Of a DNA stretch of 12,687 nucleotides, positions 1 through 10,800 are shown piece after piece (positions within the stretch are counted from its first letter, which is position 1; every line of letters starts with the position of its first letter). A program made the position numbers and the translations under genes. This DNA is from an uncultured bacterium (GTDB lineage Bacteria; Patescibacteria; JAEDAM01; Absconditabacterales; Absconditicoccaceae), in NCBI GenBank assembly GCA_903904545.1, contig CAIVDB010000125.1:1-12687 (forward strand). The letters are read 5' to 3'. The notes beneath the pieces are model-generated. The model searched no databases. It was not told the DNA's origin and saw only the letters and a program-made list of their open reading frames with translations.

Positions 1-360
1 AAGATTGCAAAAAATAAAATTTCTGCACCATTCAAGACAGCTGAATTGCCCGTCAAGCGAGGTATAGGATATGACAAGACAGCAGATATTGTAGAAGCAG
101 CAACTGCACTCAAATTGGTCAATAGGTCAGGTGCTTTCTATACTTTCGGTAGCCAGAAATTCCAAGGGAAAGAAAAGTTCGTCGCAGCATTAGATAGTGA
201 TGAGAAAACAAGAAAAAGCATAGAAAAAGATATTCAAAATAAGATTAAGGATATGAGAATGGGAAAGAAAGTCTTAGATGACGAAGCTCTTGTCGCTATT
301 GAAGCAGAGATAGAAGAAGACAACATCGATCCCGCATCATTAGGAGAAGTGATAGAATAA
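1..360 (+). CDS. recA: RecA recombinase, C-terminal part (5' end outside window)
   Basis: RecA forms the nucleoprotein filament for homologous recombination and triggers the SOS response. Only the last 119 residues are present; the reading frame is open to base 1. The sequence starts KIAKNKISAPFKTAEL, matching the end of the RecA core (E. coli KNK..APFKQAEF), and continues through the C-terminal domain with SGAFYTFGSQKFQGKEKF, equivalent to the E. coli AGAWYSYKGEKIGQGK stretch. It ends in an acidic tail rich in Asp and Glu, as is usual. The gene has no in-frame TGA and stops with TAA. The codon CGA at 58-60 falls on the aromatic position before Gly (Tyr in E. coli ILYGEGI), so it is more likely Trp than Arg here. 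The next gene starts 23 bases downstream on the same strand, so the two may be cotranscribed. Family assignment is secure. Confidence 0.95.
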   Translation, partial: KIAKNKISAPFKTAELPVKRGIGYDKTADIVEAATALKLVNRSGAFYTFGSQKFQGKEKFVAALDSDEKTRKSIEKDIQNKIKDMRMGKKVLDDEALVAIEAEIEEDNIDPASLGEVIE

Positions 361-383
361 AATTTATTTGTCTTATTTCTATT

Positions 384-866
384 ATGGAAGAAAAAAGCCT
401 TCTTGCATTTATTGCATTAGCACATAGACATACCTATGCTGCACCTCTAGAAATCAAGAAAATGTATAAATGCGAGCATCCTATCTTAGTAGGACACAAA
501 GACTATGATTTCGTACAAGGGGACTGGTGTTACCATGATTCTTATGCAGGGAGCACGCGGGCTCCTGGAAGGGAAGTGGTGTTCTTCAAAGAAACACCGG
601 TCCGATCTATGGCATATCAAGGCTATCACAATCCAAAATACGATGAAGCATTCTTTCAAGAACAAGTATTCCCCTTTTTGGGAAACGCTCTGATGAATTT
701 TGATGATGCAATGCCTTTTAGAGGACCCAATAGCTTTGCCGAAGGAGATTTTCATTACATATTTGATATGGAAGGTGACTACCAGTATTTCAAGGGACAA
801 GAAAAAATATTCTACCAAGAAGAGACTATATTCACTCAGGATGTAATGGGCACATTGATTAAATAG
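384..866 (+). CDS. DUF5680-like small protein
   Basis: A 160-residue soluble protein with no signal peptide or membrane segment. I recognise from memory, not from a search, the pattern of DUF5680 proteins: a tyrosine-rich block GDWCYHDSYAGS, then GREVVFF, then a motif that in the family reads PVWxMxYxG. Here that motif is PV-[CGA]-SMAYQGY, with CGA (603-605, residue 74) exactly at the Trp, one of the best single arguments that CGA means Trp in this genome. The only CGG codon found in the window is at 558-560 (residue 59). The biochemical role of the domain is unknown to me; in other bacteria it occurs alone or fused to DNA-binding regulators. The gene lies 23 bases after recA, has no clear Shine-Dalgarno sequence, stops with TAG, and is followed by a strong terminator. 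Confidence 0.7.
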   Translation: MEEKSLLAFIALAHRHTYAAPLEIKKMYKCEHPILVGHKDYDFVQGDWCYHDSYAGSTRAPGREVVFFKETPVRSMAYQGYHNPKYDEAFFQEQVFPFLGNALMNFDDAMPFRGPNSFAEGDFHYIFDMEGDYQYFKGQEKIFYQEETIFTQDVMGTLIK

Positions 867-886
867 AACTATAGATTTTTAGAAAG

Positions 887-913
887 AAAAAACGCCTGGG
901 TAGGGCGTTTTTT
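887..913. terminator. Bidirectional intrinsic terminator between convergent genes
   Basis: A perfect 10-bp inverted repeat: AAAAAACGCC (887-896), a 7-base loop, and GGCGTTTTTT (904-913), followed by more T on the plus strand. On the minus strand the same stem is also followed by a T-run. It sits between the stop of the DUF5680-like gene (866, +) and the stop of the CHAP gene (935, -), so it can end transcription from both sides. Confidence 0.9.
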
Positions 914-934
914 TTATATAAGAGTACATGATGA

Positions 935-2218
935 CTATTTTTCTACAGTAAATCCTATTTTAGCAATTTTGTCTCCTCCCAGAGTAATCAAGAGAATAGA
1001 TTCACCTACTTTGTCTCATGATATTTTTAAGGAAAACTCACCATTTTCTATAAGTTGAATAGAAGAATAATCTAGTCCTATAGTATTTTGAGAATTGATA
1101 AATTCCAGAGGAAGTGGCACAAGCCCAGAGAAAGGTTCTCCTGTTTTTTTATTCGTAATAGTGATAAGTAACTCTTGTTTCTTACCTATTTGGAACGGTG
1201 TTCGTTCACGAAGGTGTATTTCAATATCTCGCTGTCCTACAAAGAAGTCTCCAAGATCAGAGAGAAGAGTAAAATCAAGTGCGATATCTTTTTCTAGAAG
1301 TGTTGGAGATGGAACGGGTAGTACTTGATTATTTGAAGTGTTTGTCGATTGAGTTCCTGTCGTCAAAGAAACGATGCCTCCAGAAGATGGAGAATCAGAA
1401 GCAGCATTATGAGTGCCTGTTGTAATTACTTCGGTACTAGGAATTGTCATTCCTATTGAAATTCCAGTAGAAATTACTCCTGTTTCTACTATCGGAGCGG
1501 CTACCGCAGGCATGCCTGTTCTTGAATTGTAAATATAACATTTGATATTCTCATCATTGGTATCCTGCCAGTGATCAGACATCATAAATGTGCTTACTCG
1601 AGCCATATCTCTTACAATCACCTTGTTTAATCATTTACTATAATACATGACTTTCCCTACGTGTCCATAAGGTCCAAACTTTCCGCCTCCATTATATACA
1701 ATGAGTGAACCTACTTTGGGGGTATTGCTGATTTTATATCATGTTGCTGCTGCGTTTTCGCACCAATCTATGGCGTTACCTCATCGTGTTCTTTGTTGTA
1801 AGGAACTCGTGATATAGGGGAAAAATTCAGGAGAAATACGTGCTGCTCCATAGGTACAATATCCAGTAGTAAAGCTAGTATAGACAGTAGTAGGAACTTT
1901 CCATACAGAGATAAGATTCCCTTGTGTTAGGATATTTTGAGGCTTTTCGATCGCTTGAGCTAAATAGCTAGCAACTTCTGCAGTGTTTTCTCTCATATAA
2001 GCATCTAGAGAACCAGAAAAACTAGCAAAGAGATAACTAGAAAGTCACATAACGATAACAATAATGAGTTCTCAAGAATGGATAATTGTGTGAGAAATGT
2101 GGTTGTATGCAGAGATAGCTCTATGTACATGTTTATGAAAATGCTTAACAATATGATGATGTATTGTTAGACGAGAACTTAACTTTTGTGAGGTAGTATG
2201 TGATGCTTTACGAACCAT
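935..2218 (-). CDS. Membrane-anchored CHAP-domain peptidoglycan hydrolase
   Basis: A 427-residue protein, visible as one gene only if UGA is Gly; six in-frame TGA codons lie at 2072, 2045, 1781, 1739, 1631 and 1016. Residues 1-48 form a basic tail with 11 histidines. About residues 49-68 (GELIIVIVMGLSSYLFASFS) form one membrane helix, suggesting an N-in, C-out protein. Residues about 115-220 match a CHAP amidase/endopeptidase domain: catalytic Cys121 in TGYCTYGAAR, the GGNAIDW motif, PKVGSLIVY, and catalytic His186 in YGHVGKV. Such domains cut peptidoglycan cross-bridges or the amide bond to the glycan. A Ser/Thr/Gly-rich linker follows, then a C-terminal beta-sandwich-like segment of about 110 residues. 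CGA codons occur at residues 145, 207, 330 and 339; residue 145 precedes GGNA where CHAP domains usually have Trp. The stop is TAG. An adjacent upstream ATG (2221) is an equally possible start. A role in wall remodelling or attack on other cells is inference. Confidence 0.88.
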
Positions 2219-2241
2219 CATGATCAAGCAGAATAAATGCC

Positions 2242-2277
2242 TACATTGATTATATCCATAAAATGGATTTTTGTCAA
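2242..2277 (-). promoter_or_regulatory. Consensus sigma-70-type promoter of the CHAP gene
   Basis: On the minus strand, TTGACA (plus 2272-2277) and TATAAT (plus 2249-2254) are both perfect consensus hexamers separated by exactly 17 bases. The expected transcription start is near 2242, giving a leader of only about 24 bases before the ATG at 2218. No clear Shine-Dalgarno sequence lies in that leader. The spacer contains the small palindrome TCCATTTTATGGA, a possible operator. Confidence 0.9.
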
Positions 2278-2307
2278 AAAAAAAGGGACTTTATTTCCCC
2301 TTTTTTT
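2278..2307. terminator. Terminator-like hairpin upstream of the CHAP promoter
   Basis: AAAAAAAGGG (2278-2287) pairs with CCCTTTTTTT (2298-2307) around a 10-base loop, and a T-run ends the stem on either strand. It directly abuts the -35 box of the CHAP promoter (2272-2277). It could end a minus-strand transcript coming from the structured region to its right, or insulate the promoter. Confidence 0.5.
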
Positions 2308-2370
2308 GCAGTCCATTCTCCTTTGAAATCTGCAAGAAAAAGGGCAAAAAAAATGGTACATTTTTTGTCG

Positions 2371-2395
2371 TATAGGAACTTGAATTGTTCCTATA
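2371..2395. repeat. Perfect 9-bp inverted repeat
   Basis: TATAGGAAC (2371-2379) and GTTCCTATA (2387-2395) are exact reverse complements around the 7-base loop TTGAATT. It may be an RNA hairpin or a binding site for a dimeric regulator. No T-run follows, so it is not a terminator. Confidence 0.8.
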
Positions 2396-2404
2396 GATAG
2401 AAAC

Positions 2405-2437
2405 GACGGGAAAGTTCTTTTTTGAACTTTCTGCGTC
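2405..2437. repeat. Interrupted hairpin, GACG/CGTC plus AAAGTTC/GAACTTT
   Basis: GACG (2405-2408) pairs with CGTC (2434-2437), and AAAGTTC (2411-2417) pairs with GAACTTT (2424-2430) around a TTTTTT loop. The small internal loop is GG against CTG. The outer arm CGTC can instead pair with AAGACG at 2466-2471 (as CGTCTT), so the two structures exclude each other. Confidence 0.75.
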
Positions 2438-2476
2438 TTATTCTACAGTCCATTCTTCGCATAAAAAGACGAAAAG

Positions 2477-2505
2477 ATGGGCAAATTTAGGGGGAATTTT
2501 CCCAT
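2477..2505. repeat. 10-bp inverted repeat with one central mismatch
   Basis: ATGGG-C-AAATT (2477-2487) pairs with AATTT-T-CCCAT (2495-2505) around a 7-base G-rich loop. There is no T-run behind it. It lies about 110 bases before the start of the protease gene, within its presumed leader or promoter region. Confidence 0.75.
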
Positions 2506-2550
2506 ACAAGACAAAGCATCTAAAAAGGGCAAAAGATATGTATTTTTATC

Positions 2551-2578
2551 TTGCAATTCTTATTGTATCCACTAGTAT
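2551..2578 (+). promoter_or_regulatory. Possible weak promoter of the protease gene
   Basis: TTGCAA (2551-2556) and TAGTAT (2573-2578) each match four of six consensus bases with a 16-base spacer. Transcription would begin near 2585, about 28 bases before the ATG at 2613. This is the best candidate I could find on this strand but is far weaker than the CHAP promoter. Confidence 0.3.
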
Positions 2579-2612
2579 GCAACAAAGACTCTTTATCTTG
2601 TTTAAGATGCTT

Positions 2613-4769
2613 ATGAAAAAGAAAATTTTGTTCTTGGGTGTCGGGATGTTTTCTTTATTAGGAACGTGTCGAGCAGATCAGTCCTTTACATTGACGATGC
2701 AAAGTGATAGGAGCGAATATATAGGGTGATGAACTATGCATACATTTTCTTCGAACAATGAAGATGCTTTGACAATAAAAAAAGCAACAAAATCAGAAAT
2801 TTCACTCAAAGTAGAGGGATTGGAAGAAACTTTCTTGTTGGATTTTTGAGTTCCCAAAAGCTTTCAGGAAGAGACAATAGTTCCTGGAAAACGTTTTGGA
2901 TTTAGATGAACATTGCCTGGATTAGAAATTTCGGGAAATGGAAAGGGATGTAATGAATTGATAGGGAAATTTTATATTCATGAGTATATACTAAATGGTA
3001 CAGGGGATATAGAAACTTTGGCAATAGACTTTGTCCAATATTGTGAAAGGGACACTACAAAAGGATTATACTGATCATTGAGATATAACTCTTCTATAGC
3101 TGGATCTTGCACTTCAAGCGACTGTTCCAAAGTCAAAAGTACTCTAGGGGTTTCCTCATCAGTATCGTTGAATCCCTTACAAGAGTCTTTTGTGCCGCCT
3201 TCTTCATCACAAAGTTCAGGAAGCTCATCATCCAAGAAGATATCGAGTATACAAAAATGAAATAATACAATATTCCAAATCAATGCATATGCCTATAATA
3301 CAGAATTAGATATCTATACCCCTATGCAGTATGGAAGCGCAGTTTTGGTAGGAAAAAATCTTTTACTCACAAATGCTCATGTGATCACAGACGAAGATGA
3401 TAAGCTGACACTTCACTATGAGGCATGTCAGACAGTAAGTCCAGAGCTTCCTGCAGAGTGTTTTTCTACACTCAAGTTGATTAAATATGACATAAAGAAT
3501 GACTTAGCATTATTAGAGATCCAAGAATCTCTTCCAGTAGAAGTAGATCCTGTCTCTTTTGGAGAAACCGAAATCTCTATAGGTACCAGAATCAAAATTC
3601 TTTGATATCCAGGGAATGGAGGAAATACAATTACAGAAACGATAGGAAATATTGCTTGATACCAAAAAGGGGCATATAAAACAGACGCTAATTTGGATGA
3701 AGGAAATTCTTGAGGAGGCGCTTTTGATGAACAAGGGAACTTCATAGGAGTCCCTACCTATGCAGTTGGATGAATAACCTCAATGGGGTACATCGTCTCT
3801 CTTGATGTAATTAACCCCTTTTTGGAGAGCACTAAGTCAATAAACAAAAGTGTAACGGCTTGATTCACTCAATATCTCAAATGAACCTATAGTATTGAGA
3901 AAAAAGGAAGTATAGAAAACAATATATTTACTACTCCCCAATTTGAAGAATGAGGGCTTTATCTGACATTAGCTCAGGCTAAACCAAATCAATGAGTATA
4001 TACCTATACGATTGAAGATGAAGATGGAAACATGATCGTGATAACGGTAGGAAGAACATCCAAATATGCTCAGATAGGAAAGATTATAGAGAGTCAGCGT
4101 AAAGAACTAGCAGATTGACTTGGAGATACAAAGAAAGTGACCCAAACTCAACAGAATATAGGAGGATATTCCTGGAAAATACTTACCGTCCAATATGATG
4201 AAGTCGATATATTGCGACAGGAATATTACCTTGCTACTATTGTAGACGGAACGTTCATAAATATCAGCATGATTGTAGATGCTGAGGATACGACAAGAAG
4301 ACAAGAACTAGAGTCTTGGATAAAGAAGATTGTTTTCAAAAAGAAATTTCCTAAGCAATCAGGAAAGATAGAATACTCTCATATCAATATCCAAGGATCT
4401 AAGTCACGAGGAATAGTGAAATTTTTGGGGAGTGATAAACTCCATGTGTTACTTATCTCCAATGACTCAAACTGGTCAATGTCGATCTCTCCTACGAGCA
4501 CCTTAGAGAGTATAGAAGATATCGAAGATGCGGTTGATTATATGAAGGAGATAGGAAAATCCATTTGAGAAAAAGTAGAAAGCCAAAAAGACGGAAATCG
4601 ATATGCAGTGATTATTACCAAAGAAGATGGCACCAAAGAGATCACTACACTTCAAGGAGCAAAAAGGTGAGGTAAATTTGTAGGAATACAGACTACCTCC
4701 AAAGTACCAAATGTTGGAGATGTCAAAAAAGTATTGGAGATTAGCAAAAAGCTCCTCAAAACATCATAA
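2613..4769 (+). CDS. Secreted trypsin-like (DegP/S1C-type) serine protease with N- and C-terminal extra domains
   Basis: A 718-residue exported protease, continuous only when UGA is Gly (17 in-frame TGA, including a tandem pair near 2727). The start at 2613 gives a clean signal peptide (MKKK, hydrophobic core, cleavage near residue 21); the earlier ATG at 2538 would bury it. Residues about 25-170 form an N-terminal beta-rich domain with DFVQYCE and LYGSLRYNS, a pattern I recall from secreted bacterial proteins of unknown function. A Ser-rich linker follows. The chymotrypsin-fold domain has a full triad: His256 in LLTNAHV, Asp297 in KNDLALLEI, Ser366 in EGNSGGAF. The first Gly after Ser366 is TGA (3711-3713), as is the Gly opening GYPGNGG. 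Residues about 440-718 carry at least one PsbP/Mog1-like alpha-beta segment (WKILTVQYDEVD to ESWIKKIVF). No PDZ domain is evident. CGA codons are at residues 20, 535, 599 and 663. The stop is TAA. The glycosyltransferase follows 23 bases later. Substrates are unknown; a role outside the membrane is likely. Confidence 0.9.
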
Positions 4770-4779
4770 TTTTACTTAT

Positions 4780-4785
4780 GGAGAG
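4780..4785 (+). promoter_or_regulatory. Shine-Dalgarno sequence that decides the glycosyltransferase start
   Basis: GGAGAG lies 7 bases before the ATG at 4793. An in-frame ATG at 4778 overlaps this motif and lacks its own ribosome binding site, so 4793 is preferred. This is one of the few clear Shine-Dalgarno sequences in the window; most other starts here have none. Confidence 0.75.
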
Positions 4786-4792
4786 AAAAGAA

Positions 4793-5956
4793 ATGAAACC
4801 ACATATTCTATTTATCTTAGATTACTTTGCTCCTCATAGGTGAGGTTCAGAAACCGTATTCCAAAATATCATTACAAGACTTCACGCCAAAGGATATCCC
4901 ATTACGATACTTACCAGCAGATTTGATCCTCTTCTTCCCTCCTATGAAGAACAAGACGGGATGCATATCTACAGAGGAGGACGTACAAGAATAGGATTTA
5001 TGTTTCGTGCGGTATTCGAAGGCATCCAAATCTTCCACAAAGAAAAAGATATTTCGTTCATCCATACGAGCACCTATGGAGGAGCACTTCCATCCAGTAT
5101 ATTAGGTATTCTATTCCAAAAAAGGGTACTATTGACCGTCCATGAAGTCTTTGGGAAACTTTGGTATCTTTTCAAATGACCAATAAAAGGTGGATGGTAT
5201 AGCTGTTTTGAAAAACTTATTTTCTGATTTCCCTATACCGCTTATCACTGTGTATCAAGATATACCATGAATAGTCTTCGTTTACTTTATGGTATCCCAG
5301 ACAGAAAACTTCACATGATATATAACGGAGTAGATACCTCTTTTTGGAACCCAGAAAACGTAAGGGAAGCTGAAGTGCGTCAACGAAGGACCACTCATCA
5401 ACGAGGGGATTCCTTTGTGGTTTTGTACTACGGTCATGCAGGTAAGTCAAAAGGGATTGATTACCTTGTTGAGGCTATGCCACAAGTCCTCCAACATCAC
5501 AAAAATATCATATTTGTATACAATCTTATAGATTCCAAGAGGACAAAAGAGATTATTTCAAAGATCCAAGACATAAAATCCTCGATACAAAACCCAAAAA
5601 GTATCCAAATTTTTAATGGATTTGATCAAGGAACATTACGTACAGTGCTAGCAAGTGCAGATATGGTAGTTGCTCCTTCCCTAGCAGAAGGATTTGGATC
5701 TGTCCATACAGAAGTTGCTGCTATGCAAAAACCACTCCTTACAACGTCTATAGGCCCATTGCCAGAAGTGGTTTGGGGGAAGGTTGAGATGGTTGCCCCA
5801 GCTTCTTCACAAGCTATTGCTGAGTGAATACTCAATATGGCAGAGTGAAAATTTCCTAATTCATTGCCACCAAAAATATTTTCTCGAGACGAGACCGTAC
5901 AAGAAATAGAGGGACTCTATAAAAAGATTATTACTTCAAACAATAGAAACTTATAG
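4793..5956 (+). CDS. Glycosyltransferase, GT4 family (GT-B fold)
   Basis: A 387-residue cytoplasmic or membrane-associated enzyme that would transfer a sugar from a nucleotide donor to a surface glycan, lipid or protein. It begins MKPHILFILDYFAPHRGGSE, the typical GT4 N-terminal strand and glycine-rich acceptor-side loop; the first Gly of GG is TGA. The junction motif VSRYTMNSL, then IYNGVDTSFW, marks the start of the C-terminal Rossmann domain, which continues with LYYGHAGKSKGIDYLVEAM. The donor-binding EX7E motif is E299-GFGSVHT-E307. Five in-frame TGA codons are read as Gly. CGA occurs at residues 198, 204 and 365; residue 365 lies in FS-[CGA]-DETVQEIEGLY, where GT4 enzymes commonly have FSWE or FSWD. 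The gene follows the protease by 23 bases and may share its transcript. It stops with TAG, two bases from the stop of the convergent gene. Sugar specificity cannot be told from sequence. Confidence 0.92.
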
Positions 5957-5958
5957 TA

Positions 5959-7569
5959 CTATTTTTTCTCCTTTACAAAAATACGAGCAATCACTTGTGG
6001 GTGTCCTTCTGGAAGATCTTTTATTTTACTTACTATGATCTCAAATTCAGGATTTTTGATAGCACGAAGTTCCTTAAACATTTTATCTTTGAATTTTCCA
6101 TACTGTAAATCGATAAGTGAAGGTTTTAAAGTACCTCAATCTACTTGAATAAATGATCTATCGTTTTCTCAGAGATTTTCCAATTCTCCTTTTTCATTTC
6201 TTAGGAGAACATTGTTCTTTTTTCTATATGAATTATTATAGTCATGGATAGTTTTGAGAGATTTGTTAGCCATCTCTGACAGGCTAGTAATATTGGAAGA
6301 AAATGCTCTGTCGGGATCAAAAGTATAGTTTTTTATGGTAGTGATCAAACCAGAGATCTGTGGATTGCTTATTTTACTAACATCAAGAGAGTTGAGTTGC
6401 TTGATTAATCCAATTGACTCTGTTTTATATCCTTCTTTTTTGGTCTCCTGACCTTCCCCCGCACTTTCATACTCAAAGATATTGCTAGTGATCTTCTCTA
6501 TTGTTTGAGATAATTCTAGGTTTTCATCCATAAAATTCTTGATCTCCCAAAATTTATCCAAATTGTCCTTTACCTCTTTTATTATTTCGTCAGTTTTATC
6601 TACGGTTTCATGAGCTTTGTCCTCAGCTTCTTTTGAGTCTATCTTCTGGTTGTCTAGTGCTGCCTTGGTGTCGGGGGTATTGTCTGTCGTTGTGGGATTC
6701 ACTGCGTTCTTTGTCTCATTAGATGATGGTTGAGGAATTTGTTTTTCCTTCTCTGACGCGATAGTGGATGTATTTTTGTCGGGGTCATCTTGAGAAGTCC
6801 CGTTTTGTGGAGAGCTAGATATATTTTCGTTGCTTACTGATGAGATACGAGGAAAGGTATCATTTTGGAACGTAAAAACTCTCTTCTCCTGTCCCTTAAA
6901 AAAGGAGATGGTCTTGTCTTGCTGGGTAAAGCTTCCATCAGACTGGCTGAGAAATCATGAGGAATCTTTTCCTCCAGATACTCATAAACTCACGGGAATC
7001 GCTTCCCCAGAGGATATTGCATTTGGAGTTATGATATTCCCATCTTTATCATAAAAATCAATTCTTCCTGTAGCAATAACTTGTCCTGTTTCATCAGTAA
7101 GGGTACCAAACTGAGGATTGTTTCCCTGATAGAGATCAGGATAAATCTGCCAAATTTCGTGACGAGGAGCTTCTTCCTCTGCTTGTGGTTTAGTCTCAGG
7201 CGTTGGAGATGATGAAGGCGTCGATGGTTGCTGAAGGGTGTTGAAAGTAGCGAGAACTTGTTCTTGATTCGGATTTTTCTCTGTACCAACAAGTGCTGTA
7301 TACAGATACATGACAGCAAACTCTGGACTTCAGGAAACAAGCTGCTGAGTCTCTTTCGCAATGTCTTTGCAGACAGTGCAGATCTTTTCTTGATTGGGTT
7401 TGATGGCATTTAAAAATTGCTCATTGTTCTTAGTGAGTTGATTGACAAGCAAAATTTTTTCTTGTTTGGTATCCAACAGTTTTTTTAATTTGGATCAGTC
7501 AAGATTCTCTTTTTGAAGTTCCTGAACGATATCAGGTGTTTTTTGACTTTCTGGAGAGTTAGTAGTCAT
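5959..7569 (-). CDS. Unknown 536-aa Ser/Thr/Gln-rich protein, last gene of the surface-protein operon
   Basis: Not recognised. Read with UGA as Gly (TGA at 7495, 7330, 6982, 6955, 6169 and 6136) it is one 536-residue protein without a signal peptide or membrane segment. Residues 1-110 are helical, rich in Lys, Gln and Glu, with a CxxC pair (Cys64, Cys67). A Pro/Ser/Thr linker follows (QQPSTPSSSPTPE), then a beta-rich stretch containing GRIDFYDKDGNIITP, then a long low-complexity Ser/Asn/Thr/Gln region. Next is a charged helical, possibly coiled-coil segment (DKAHETVDKTDEIIKEVKDN), and finally a more globular C-terminus ending in HPQVIARIFVKEKK. It contains no CGA codon, unlike its neighbours. 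The start is set by the ATG at 7567-7569; there is no obvious Shine-Dalgarno sequence. It lies 19 bases after the 96-aa gene, so it is probably in the same operon as the giant surface protein and could be a cytoplasmic partner or regulator of it; that is inference only. Confidence 0.8.
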
Positions 7570-7588
7570 GAATACAGAGGCAAGATGA

Positions 7589-7879
7589 TTAAATGTTAGC
7601 GAGAATATCTTCTAGTTTTTTGATATCTTCCATATCTTTGAGATGGTATTGATCTTCCATCTGTTTGAGCTGAAGAAGAAATACTTGAGCTTTGGACAAT
7701 GCTAACTCTTGACTTTTCGAAGAGCTTTCTTTGATTGCTGATTGGACAATAGTCAAGAGCGCATCAATGGTGTGGTCGTCTATGATATTACGCTCAAGAA
7801 GGACCTTGAGTCATCAAGCAAGAGGTCGCTCTGTGACAAGACTATCGCAGAGTGCAAGGAGATATACTTTTCTATCCAT
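7589..7879 (-). CDS. Small 96-aa helical protein of unknown function
   Basis: This small gene is hidden under the standard code because a tandem TGA-TGA (read Gly-Gly) splits it near codon 22. With UGA as Gly it runs from ATG (7877-7879) to TAA (7589-7591). The protein starts MDRKVYLLALCDSLVTE, passes through PLAGGLKVLLERNIID, and ends in a long predicted helix rich in Gln, Lys and Glu (SQELALSKAQVFLLQLKQ). It has no signal peptide or membrane helix. Its ATG overlaps the TAA of the giant surface protein in the sequence TAATG, which suggests translational coupling. The 536-aa gene follows 19 bases on. One CGA codon lies at residue 18. Evidence for being real: tight operon fit, continuous frame and soluble helical composition. 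I do not recognise the family. Confidence 0.75.
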
Positions 7880-10800
7880 TATTTCTTGTTAGCATTGTAA
7901 ATGTGTGCTTTCAATGTCTCTGGACTAGAGAAGTATTTTGCAGATTTGAAATCGTAAGACGAGTATCTCTCATCAGTTGTCTTGAAAAGACGGTAGACTT
8001 TTCCACCAGGAGCAGTATAAGGAGCTGATTGCCAAGTACCATCTACAATATGATCTCGACCACCTCCAGAAACGCTATATCCACCTCCAGCAGTACCTCC
8101 ATTATTTTTATCAATATATGCTTTGAGTGCATCTAGCGTAGTAAAGGTCTTAGCATAAATGAAATTAGGAGACGTAAAGGTTTTGTTGGTACTATTGTAA
8201 CTTATAGAGTAGACTTTGCCGTTTGGAGCGGTATATCTATTGCTTGTATCTACAATGTTATCCTCCCCAAGATATTCTTCAGTGAGATCATACAAATATT
8301 GGAGTGCATCAATTTTTCTCTGAGTAGAGGAAGCGGTACTATCTCCTTCAAGTTCACTAATCTTTTCATTGAGCATAGTCAGAAGAGTATTGAGGAAACT
8401 CGTCCTCAATGTAGAGGTATAAAGATCTTTGAGTGTAGTAAAGATGATCGCCACTTGAAGTTTTTCTGTTGTAGAAAGGTTTGAGCTTATATCACTACTA
8501 TCTTCATCTTCAGTTATTGTAGTGACAGAGAATGAAGTGGAGAAGTCTCCTATAGTAAGGATACTGCGTACTCTGGTTTCATACAATTTACTTGAGATGA
8601 TTTCTATGCTTACGGTATCTCCATTTTTGATATATCCAGTAGTTCCTGTCATGACGTCATTGATATACAAAACTCATTTATCGACACTTGCTAAACTATA
8701 TGCACCTGTAGAAAGGCCAGCAATTGTTGCCTTAGAAGAAGTATAACTCTTCTTGGTTGTAGCATCAATAATACTTCCAAAAGAGAAGCTTGTTGGGGTA
8801 TAATTTGCTACCCCTGAATAGACAAAACTCTGGATAGGAGAAGCTATCCCCGTGATCCCAAACTTATCCTTAGCAACAACATATCGGTAATATGTACCAG
8901 AAGTTCCTAATTCATAATTTACAAGAGGAACTGATATCGCTCAAGTAAATCATGATTTTACTATGCCAGTAAAGGCAGGGGTAGTGCCGATGTAATACAG
9001 ATATCCACTGAGCCCAACTCCAGCATCACTTGAGGCATTCCACATGAGCGTAAATGCACCACTTACGGCACTTCCACTAGTTGGATAGGTGAGGACAGGA
9101 GTAGTAGGTCCTGTAGTGTCCAAAGCAATATTAGAGAGTGTCAAAGAAGATGATTCACTTCCTGATGAAAGGCTAATATATACAGCTTTGTTTCCATCAT
9201 TACCTGTAAGTACAGGATAGAGGAGAAGCGGACTACCTACAGTATATACTCATGAGAGAGGAGTACTAACGTCTCCTGTAAGTAAATAAGATGCAGATTT
9301 ATTTGCATTGAGAAGGATACTAACGAAAGATGGAGTATAATAGGTTGACCCATTGAGGATAAGATTAGCTCAAGTAATACTTCCTGTAGCAGTCAATGTG
9401 ACATTCAGCGTAAAGGGAATCGGGACAAAGAATGCTGTATTTCCTGCATAATCTGTAGCTATGATTTGCCATACATAAGAAGCATTAGGGAGGTTTGTTA
9501 TCGTTTTGCTTGTTCCTGTGAGTTCATAGGTATTACGAATGGCTATATTTGTTCCACTGAGGATAAAGGTATACCCAGAGATTCCAGCTCATGAGTCATT
9601 TCCAGCTCGAGAGAAAGGAACGTCTCGACTACTCGTTATCGTGCTTCCATTGGCTGGAGAGGTCCCTGTAAGTATGGGCGCTGTTTTATCAATCCAATTG
9701 ACAGTAGCTAGTGTTGAACCAGTATTCCCTACAAGATCAGAGAAGGTAAAAGTAAATGACCCATTACCCGTAAAGAGATGCCCTGTTGCGTTGACTCAAG
9801 TGAGAGTCTCTGTCCATCACGTCAAACTTACATACACGTTCCCATTTGTCCAAACTCCTGTTGTAGGACTAACAACGGCAAATGGCCAGAAGGTATCAGT
9901 ATAATTAAAGAGTCACAATGATGATGCTCCTGTATTTCCTGCAAGATCAGTAGCAATGATTTGCCATTGTCGTACATGGGAAGTGGTATAGGATAAGACA
10001 TTAGCGAGAAGAGTAATCCCCGTTCCTGTTGTAGTGATTCCTGTGATAAGTGTTGCTCCACTGTAAATAGAGAAAGTATATCCAGAGATTCCTAGATTAT
10101 CATTTCCTGACCAAGTAAATGCAAATGAACTACTTCCAGAAAGATGCGTTCCCATAGCAGGAGTAAGTAAACTCACTGACGGAGGTGTAGTATCTGGAGC
10201 AGTAAAGGTAAATAAACTTAAATGGTTAGTCCTAAATGTACAATATTGTCCACTATCGACGATACATGTGGTCTGTGGACTATTTGTTGTCCAAGTATTT
10301 CCGTCATTATAATTGGATCTCAAGATATTGAGTTGTTGCCCAGAAGTAGTAGTACTGACATACGTAGAGACAGTAAATGTTCCTGTATAAGGAATCAAAT
10401 CTGCAGTAGTAGATCCTACCTCGATAGTTTGAAGAGGAGCTAAGAATAGTCCAGTCTCTCCTTGTACGGCAATTTTAGATCATGTAGCAAGTTGAGGAGC
10501 TATGAAGGAGCCACCTCGGCTAGCACCAGAGAATCAGACATATTGATTTCCACTAACGAGAAGTGATCAACTAAGGGATGCTCCAGTATAGAGATGTGGA
10601 GTTGTTATGTGATCTAATCACGTATTGCTATGTATAGCGAAATTACTCACAAGTGTCGGATGTGATTGAAGGAGTTGGATAAGCGATGCAGGTAAAGAAG
10701 TGAGTTGATTATTTGTTGCATAAAATAGTCCTAATCTAGAAAGATTACCAAAGCTCGTCGGAAGCGAAGTAAGTTGATTGTGGTCTAAATCAAAGATATA

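Follow-up and report, generated by a model that had tools for sequence, protein, structure and literature searches.

Changes in the meaning of sense codons are very rare in bacteria, and the closest described counterpart of the DNA analyzed here is the genetic code of the Absconditabacteria, which we take to be NCBI table 37. According to Shulgina and Eddy (2021), bacteria of this group use CGA and CGG for tryptophan and UGA for glycine (PMC8629427), a code that was restated for the Absconditabacterales (PMC13092985). Their survey took G73 without A20 in tRNA-UCG as marks of a tryptophan tRNA, covered a GC range of 26-38%, found the reassigned codons to be still rare (in the species surveyed, fewer than 37 CGA per 10,000 codons) and held that decoding can be established by experiment only (PMC8629427). 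CGG was also reported as tryptophan in some Gracilibacteria, as well as in Anaerococcus and a Bacilli clade, the order RFN20 (PMC8629427).

The window, by which we mean the entire analyzed stretch of 12,687 nucleotides, exhibits the same three predicted codon changes as the Absconditabacteria code, probably belongs to the same bacterial group by RecA and GT4 similarity, has a similarly low GC content (37.9%), and has relatives with the same marks on tRNA-UCG. It differs in its CGA frequency, which at 49 per 10,000 codons lies above the survey value, the two figures being counted on different bases. Sister genomes of the Gracilibacteria type share in-frame UGA facing glycine, but use CGA, where it occurs, for arginine. 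Anaerococcus and RFN20 are likewise low-GC genomes in which an arginine codon of the CGN box was captured by tryptophan; in contrast to the window, only CGG has changed there, while CGA stays arginine and tRNA-UCG is missing (PMC8629427). An earlier note on this DNA, which had proposed CGA as tryptophan, mentioned a survey reporting CGA/CGG reassignment in Absconditabacteria; this was correct (PMC8629427), and the code change itself is already published for this group. Added here are the share of CGA among the tryptophan codons of the window (37%) and the alterations of the tryptophanyl-tRNA synthetase (TrpRS) in the order of its relatives detailed below.

Judged by similarity, the source is likely an Absconditabacteria-type bacterium. 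The C-terminus of its RecA is 90% identical over 98 amino acids to that of G002, the nearest genome found by similarity, and the order of G002 comprises 49 genomes, two of which are titled Absconditabacteria. The ORFs of the window are open only if UGA is read through, and no tRNA genes were found within it. The eight called genes contained 20 CGA, one CGG, 33 UGG, 23 CGU, one CGC, 43 AGA and 13 AGG codons. A separate raw ORF codon usage was set aside because this count included unsupported frames, and homology-supported stretches were counted instead.

We predict, with a probability of roughly 95%, that CGA and CGG specify tryptophan in this source, besides UGA specifying glycine, because these two CGN codons are sited where related proteins carry tryptophan. 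Database proteins of the GT4 family were rejected as direct witnesses, as the consensus of 121 proteins has tryptophan at a glycine and arginine at a UGG of the window; the comparison was therefore carried out at the codon level from the DNA of relatives, with the aligned cell as the unit. Some of the GT4 database sources seem to render UGA as tryptophan. The 133 cells at CGA positions of the window contained UGG (40), CGA/CGG (35), Tyr (11), Asn (10), Phe (9), Lys (8), arginine encoded by AGR/CGU/CGC (1) and others (19), which bears out the earlier claim more strongly than it was stated. Conversely, the 157 cells at UGG positions held CGA/CGG 49 times, UGG 48 times and arginine not once. AGR/CGU/CGC positions faced Arg in 201, Lys in 80, UGG in two and CGA/CGG in one of 434 cells, in agreement with the proposed use of CGT, AGA and AGG for arginine. 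The difference between the two classes of codons (40:1 versus 2:201) yielded p of about 3e-42 in Fisher's test, which serves only as a guide since related genomes do not contribute independent cells. UGA as glycine, also part of the earlier note, found the same backing, with Gly codons in 61, UGA in 58 and UGG in three of 207 cells.

By position (Table 1), eight of the 20 CGA codons have tryptophan support, one leans towards lysine and 11 lack a decisive column. All eight CGA codons listed in the earlier note are in frame, and those starting at 58, 603, 1784, 1598, 5885 and 9607 held up as tryptophan sites, while 8884 and 10516 gained no clear support; the GT4 codons at 5384 and 5402 complete the supported set. 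The span given in that note ends at the 9970-9972 codon, which faces neither Trp nor Arg, and the single CGG, which is absent from it, also occupies a tryptophan position. The four CGA codons of the trypsin-like gene all fall in weakly conserved columns. DUF5680 is a family with homologs outside the bacterial group, in which an AGA codon of the same gene faces Arg in 120 of 120 proteins. These homologs carry the same database-translation risk as those of GT4, yet position 74 (CGA at 603) is almost invariably tryptophan. Taken together, the reading of CGA as tryptophan is supported by the codon-level alignments, by this family with outside homologs and by the tryptophan-type tRNA-UCG of the relatives. 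Standard annotation writes arginine at the 21 window codons predicted to encode tryptophan, and the same mis-annotation reaches the databases for the entire group.

Table 1. CGA and CGG codons of the window with their partners in aligned relatives or homologs
Gene	Codon	Position	Strand	Predicted reading	Aligned partners
RecA	CGA	58..60	+	Trp	TGG in 8/10 relatives, CGA in 2/10
DUF5680	CGG	558..560	+	Trp	Trp in 105/120 homologs, Arg in 4/120; Pro in the order's 3 distant copies
DUF5680	CGA	603..605	+	Trp	Trp in 119/120 homologs; Tyr in the order's 3 distant copies
CHAP protein	CGA	1784..1786	-	Trp	18 cells: TGG 8, Phe 7, CGA/CGG 3
CHAP protein	CGA	1598..1600	-	Trp	19 cells: CGA/CGG 9, Tyr 5, TGG 2, Phe 2, Gly 1
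CHAP protein	CGA	1229..1231	-		13 cells: Asn 9, CGA/CGG 3, Tyr 1
CHAP protein	CGA	1202..1204	-	leans against Trp	13 cells: Lys 8, Ala 2, Thr 2, Arg 1
Trypsin-like protein	CGA	2670..2672	+		column not usable
Trypsin-like protein	CGA	4215..4217	+		mixed column; Trp in 2/20 proteins
Trypsin-like protein	CGA	4407..4409	+		aliphatic column, 20 proteins; neither Trp nor Arg
Trypsin-like protein	CGA	4599..4601	+		mixed column, 20 proteins; Trp and Arg not listed
GT4	CGA	5384..5386	+	Trp	13 cells: TGG 8, CGA/CGG 3, Val 1, Met 1
GT4	CGA	5402..5404	+	Trp	13 cells: TGG 6, CGA/CGG 6, Leu 1
GT4	CGA	5885..5887	+	Trp	8 cells: TGG 4, CGA/CGG 4
Small ORF 7589-7879	CGA	7826..7828	-		no relatives found among the loci
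Surface protein	CGA	10516..10518	-		1 cell: Ser
Surface protein	CGA	9970..9972	-		Tyr 2, Thr 1, Ala 1
Surface protein	CGA	9625..9627	-		Ser 2, Asn 1, Val 1
Surface protein	CGA	9607..9609	-	Trp	3 cells: TGG 2, CGA 1
Surface protein	CGA	8884..8886	-		CGA 2, Ala 1, Ile 1
Surface protein	CGA	8056..8058	-		Gly 1, Thr 1, Leu 1

Across the order, the commonest partner in 508 CGA columns was UGG (288), followed by Tyr or Phe (65), Arg (10) and Lys (8), the opposite of the Arg/Lys predominance that the earlier note had named as speaking against tryptophan. A normal tRNA-Arg for CGA, which it had named as well, did not appear in the relatives: no arginine-type tRNA-UCG was read in 12 genomes of the order, and where it was sought and read in these relatives of the window's genome, tRNA-UCG carried G73 and lacked A20 (12 of 12). 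As to the origin of this tRNA-UCG, its best matches within the same genome reached 67-74% and were scattered, among incomplete sets of 3 to 23 tRNAs per genome. We consider it very unlikely that CGA and CGG are ambiguous, mostly tryptophan and at times arginine, for instance via a left-over arginine-type tRNA. Such ambiguity would fit the 122 CGG columns of the order, in which UGG was the commonest partner in 60 and Arg in 15, the lysine-leaning CHAP column at 1202-1204, and genome G004, in which a second tRNA-CCG with the arginine-type mark A20 (L051) accompanies a tryptophan-type copy. However, the tRNA-UCG data and the single arginine codon among the 133 window cells stand against it, and contamination is possible in G004 because this genome is in many contigs. 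Further points against tryptophan are the Tyr and Pro of the distant DUF5680 copies of the order at two positions assigned to it, and the poorly paired acceptor stem of the tRNA-CCG of G001 (L057); the CHAP column concerns one of 20 CGA codons.

Under the predicted tryptophan reading, the usual tRNA-Arg(UCG) would have been lost or remodelled, and tRNA-UCG and tRNA-CCG with tryptophan-type marks (G73, no A20) would now read CGA and CGG, while arginine would be written by AGA, AGG and CGU. What the alignments display is where CGA, CGG and the other arginine codons fall, together with the tRNA genes of the relatives; we infer that the window's own genome encodes both tryptophan-type tRNAs, that the TrpRS serving tRNA-Trp(CCA) would also charge them, and that the ribosome would insert tryptophan at CGA and CGG. 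The TrpRS of the order departs from residues that are fixed elsewhere, with Gln-Ser replaced by Pro-Ala and Gly-Tyr-Gly by Ser-Tyr-Lys, which renders the charging step directly testable. Possible, if doubtful, is a mature reassignment, in which CGA would provide a third to half of the tryptophan codons in many lineages of the order and one TrpRS, rebuilt by these changes, would charge tRNAs CCA, CCG and UCG sharing only the anticodon middle base C35, which would make it a naturally occurring synthetase of relaxed anticodon recognition.

CGA retains its usual meaning elsewhere in the class. In ValRS of 20 sister genomes with in-frame UGA, UGA faced Gly in 218 of 251 columns, while CGA, in columns from eight of the 20, faced Arg in 38 and Trp in two of 49; an ordinary tRNA-Arg(UCG) was read in seven of the 20, and other genomes of the class also keep CGA as arginine. 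Sisters with UGA as glycine but CGA as arginine locate the change within one class. That CGA is arginine in the window as well, its tryptophan-like contexts reflecting chance or selective reading, would be in line with these genomes and with the Lys/Arg leaning at CHAP 1202-1204, but is most improbable given one Arg against 40 UGG cells, the reverse ratio at the other arginine codons of the same genes, and the DUF5680 column. An arginine reading by chance or in one odd gene was rejected, as the same picture emerges from five genes, namely RecA, DUF5680, CHAP, GT4 and the surface protein. Another aromatic residue is hardly credible either, since the Tyr and Phe cells at CGA positions are outnumbered by UGG, window UGG itself faces these residues (12 of 157 cells), DUF5680 has tryptophan in 119 of 120 homologs, and tRNA-UCG shares G73 with tRNA-Trp(CCA).

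Two sister genomes, G113 and G114, carry an odd tRNA-UCG. We make no claim of another CGA meaning for either of them; in the 49 aligned CGA cells of G114, no single residue prevailed (Leu 7, Gly 7, Ser 6 and Gln 4).

With UGA read through, the 12,687-base window (GC 37.9%) held eight ORFs, identified with Pfam where matches existed (see table), which together contained 20 CGA, one CGG, 33 UGG, 23 CGU, one CGC, 43 AGA and 13 AGG codons. The eight CGA codons that the earlier note had listed as apparently encoding tryptophan were all in frame and correctly located, and the note's observation was confirmed.

ORFs of the window, in the groups reported, and positions discussed in the text
Feature	Coordinates	Position discussed
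RecA C-terminus		CGA, 58-60
DUF5680 protein	384-866	CGA, codon 74; CGG, codon 59; AGA, codon 113; AGG, codon 63
CHAP protein		CGA, 1202-1204
Trypsin-like protease
Family 4 glycosyltransferase (GT4)
Two ORFs without Pfam match
Large surface protein (leucine-rich repeats, Ig-like domains)

The predicted reading of CGA as Trp in the window is supported by the codons of relatives. CGA and CGG were masked in the window proteins, these were compared by tblastn with 182 loci, and the aligned codons (cells) were tallied with each distinct DNA context counted once. Window CGA was matched in 133 cells by UGG (40), CGA/CGG (35), Tyr (11), Asn (10), Phe (9), Lys (8) and others (19), with a single AGR/CGU/CGC arginine codon. 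Window UGG (157 cells) was matched by CGA/CGG in 49, UGG in 48 and Arg in none, while the 434 cells at window AGR/CGU/CGC included Arg (201), Lys (80), UGG (2) and CGA/CGG (1). By these counts CGA resembles UGG and not the other arginine codons; since cells from kin genomes are not independent, the Fisher value for this contrast is a guide only. Position by position, 8 of the 20 window CGA codons were Trp-supported, one (in the CHAP gene) leaned towards Lys and the other 11 pointed neither way.

The nearest genome found in a scan of genome contigs (8 loci matched) was G002, with 90% identity over 98 aa of the RecA C-terminus. The gene order of the window (RecA, CHAP, GT4, surface protein) recurs on its contig, where DUF5680 lies on the opposite side of RecA. 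Among the 49 genomes of its order in the search, two are named Candidatus Absconditabacteria and others Gracilibacteria, Peribacteria or Patescibacteria. Across the order (154 loci, per-genome rows summed; stop-to-stop frames, for which some noise is expected), the commonest partner was UGG in 288 of 508 CGA columns (Tyr or Phe 65, Arg 10) and in 60 of 122 CGG columns (Arg 15). At least one UGG-type CGA column was present in 38 of the 39 order genomes with a scored CGA column. Conversely, the order's CGA and CGG codons met UGG in 109 of 240 cells from three sister genomes, or in 67 distinct columns versus 8 with Arg codons. Extension of the Trp reading to CGG is likewise supported by these alignments.

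This code change is already known for Absconditabacteria: the survey mentioned in the earlier note reports CGA and CGG as Trp (Shulgina and Eddy 2021, PMC8629427), as is restated for Absconditabacterales in PMC13092985. The survey describes the reassignments as early, with rare codons. In contrast, CGA appears as a working Trp codon here, although the counting bases differ: it made up 20 of 54 predicted Trp codons in the window (37%), 13 of 29 in homology-supported stretches, 17-45% in G001-G008 and, in smaller samples, from 0 (G022, G038, G039) to 64% (G017). The homology-supported stretches of the order members G039 (L138), G038 (L142) and G022 (L108) lacked CGA altogether (0/1,050 to 0/1,280 codons each).

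The RecA alignment proposed in the earlier note gave TGG in eight of ten relatives at the CGA codon and CGA in two. For DUF5680, 127 homologs were found at E 1e-3 or better; of the best 120 of these, 119 carry Trp at the CGA position, and at the CGG position 105 have Trp and 4 have Arg. AGA was matched by Arg in all 120, and AGG by Arg in 98, with Lys in a further 18. As counter-evidence, three order genes of about 32% identity (G002, G048, G049) have Tyr and Pro at the CGA and CGG positions. The window gene is 60-70% identical to homologs of which several are from MAGs named as archaeal by their source (Nanoarchaeota, Woesearchaeota), but about 32% identical to the G002 gene adjoining RecA, which suggests gene transfer followed by recoding of its Trp codons.

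A Trp-type tRNA-UCG, which the earlier note proposed to look for, was found in 12 order relatives. The search pattern (UCG anticodon loop plus T arm) retrieved one tRNA-UCG in nine of ten order genomes and two identical copies in the tenth, while G022 and G023 each yielded a single gene; as read from the sequences, all have G73 and lack A20, the provisional Trp rule of the survey (PMC8629427). The same ten genomes carry a tRNA-CCG without A20, with a poorly paired acceptor stem in G001. In G004 a second tRNA-CCG with A20 (L051, on the separate contig C151) occurs beside the genome's Trp-type tRNA-CCG; it looks Arg-type, which counts against a clean CGG story in G004, and may be a left-over, a contaminant contig or a sign of dual reading of CGG.

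One TrpRS apiece was present in eight order genomes. In the 30 of 34 TrpRS loci that yielded a frame (9 order, 16 sister, 5 outgroup), six positions were fixed differently in the order and identical in sisters and outgroups; the counterpart figures were 1 for sisters and 3 for outgroups. Three of the six changes (Ala to Met, Phe to Leu, Met to Lys) agree with the G. stearothermophilus-type sequence and are nothing out of the ordinary. The remaining three comprise Gln-Ser to Pro-Ala at 102-103 and Gly to Ser at 283, which adjoins a Gly-to-Lys change at 285. Among the five PDB alignments listed, two of nearly the same protein, Gln-Ser was kept in all five and Gly 283 in four. These order-specific residues might affect anticodon reading; the simple alternative is clade-specific drift. 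A literature search covering few subscription journals found no paper on Absconditabacteria and tryptophanyl-tRNA synthetase. In the order's TrpRS loci (L029-L036, L239, L241), residues fixed in sisters and outgroups are replaced, most notably Gln-Ser by Pro-Ala and Gly-Tyr-Gly by Ser-Tyr-Lys.

Among 20 sister genomes that use UGA in frame, an ordinary tRNA-Arg(UCG) (A20, A73) was read in seven and an odd one in two, and the anticodon-loop/T-arm pattern read none in 11. With ValRS columns below 50% conservation left out, the 49 CGA columns of the sister genomes, only 8 of the 20 having scored CGA, gave Arg 38 times and Trp twice, and the 71 CGA columns of 28 class members without in-frame UGA gave Arg 55 times and Trp never. 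The tRNA-UCG at L213 and L214 (sister genomes G113 and G114) carries A73, lacks A20 and is unusual in its body; in G114, CGA is almost unused, without a dominant partner residue. Two sister ValRS genes, L194 (G122) and L202 (G083), have CGG in a Trp column, and UGG was the commonest partner of CGG (12 of 37 cells) in G114 stretches L263-L282, in line with what the 2021 survey (PMC8629427) notes on CGG in Gracilibacteria.
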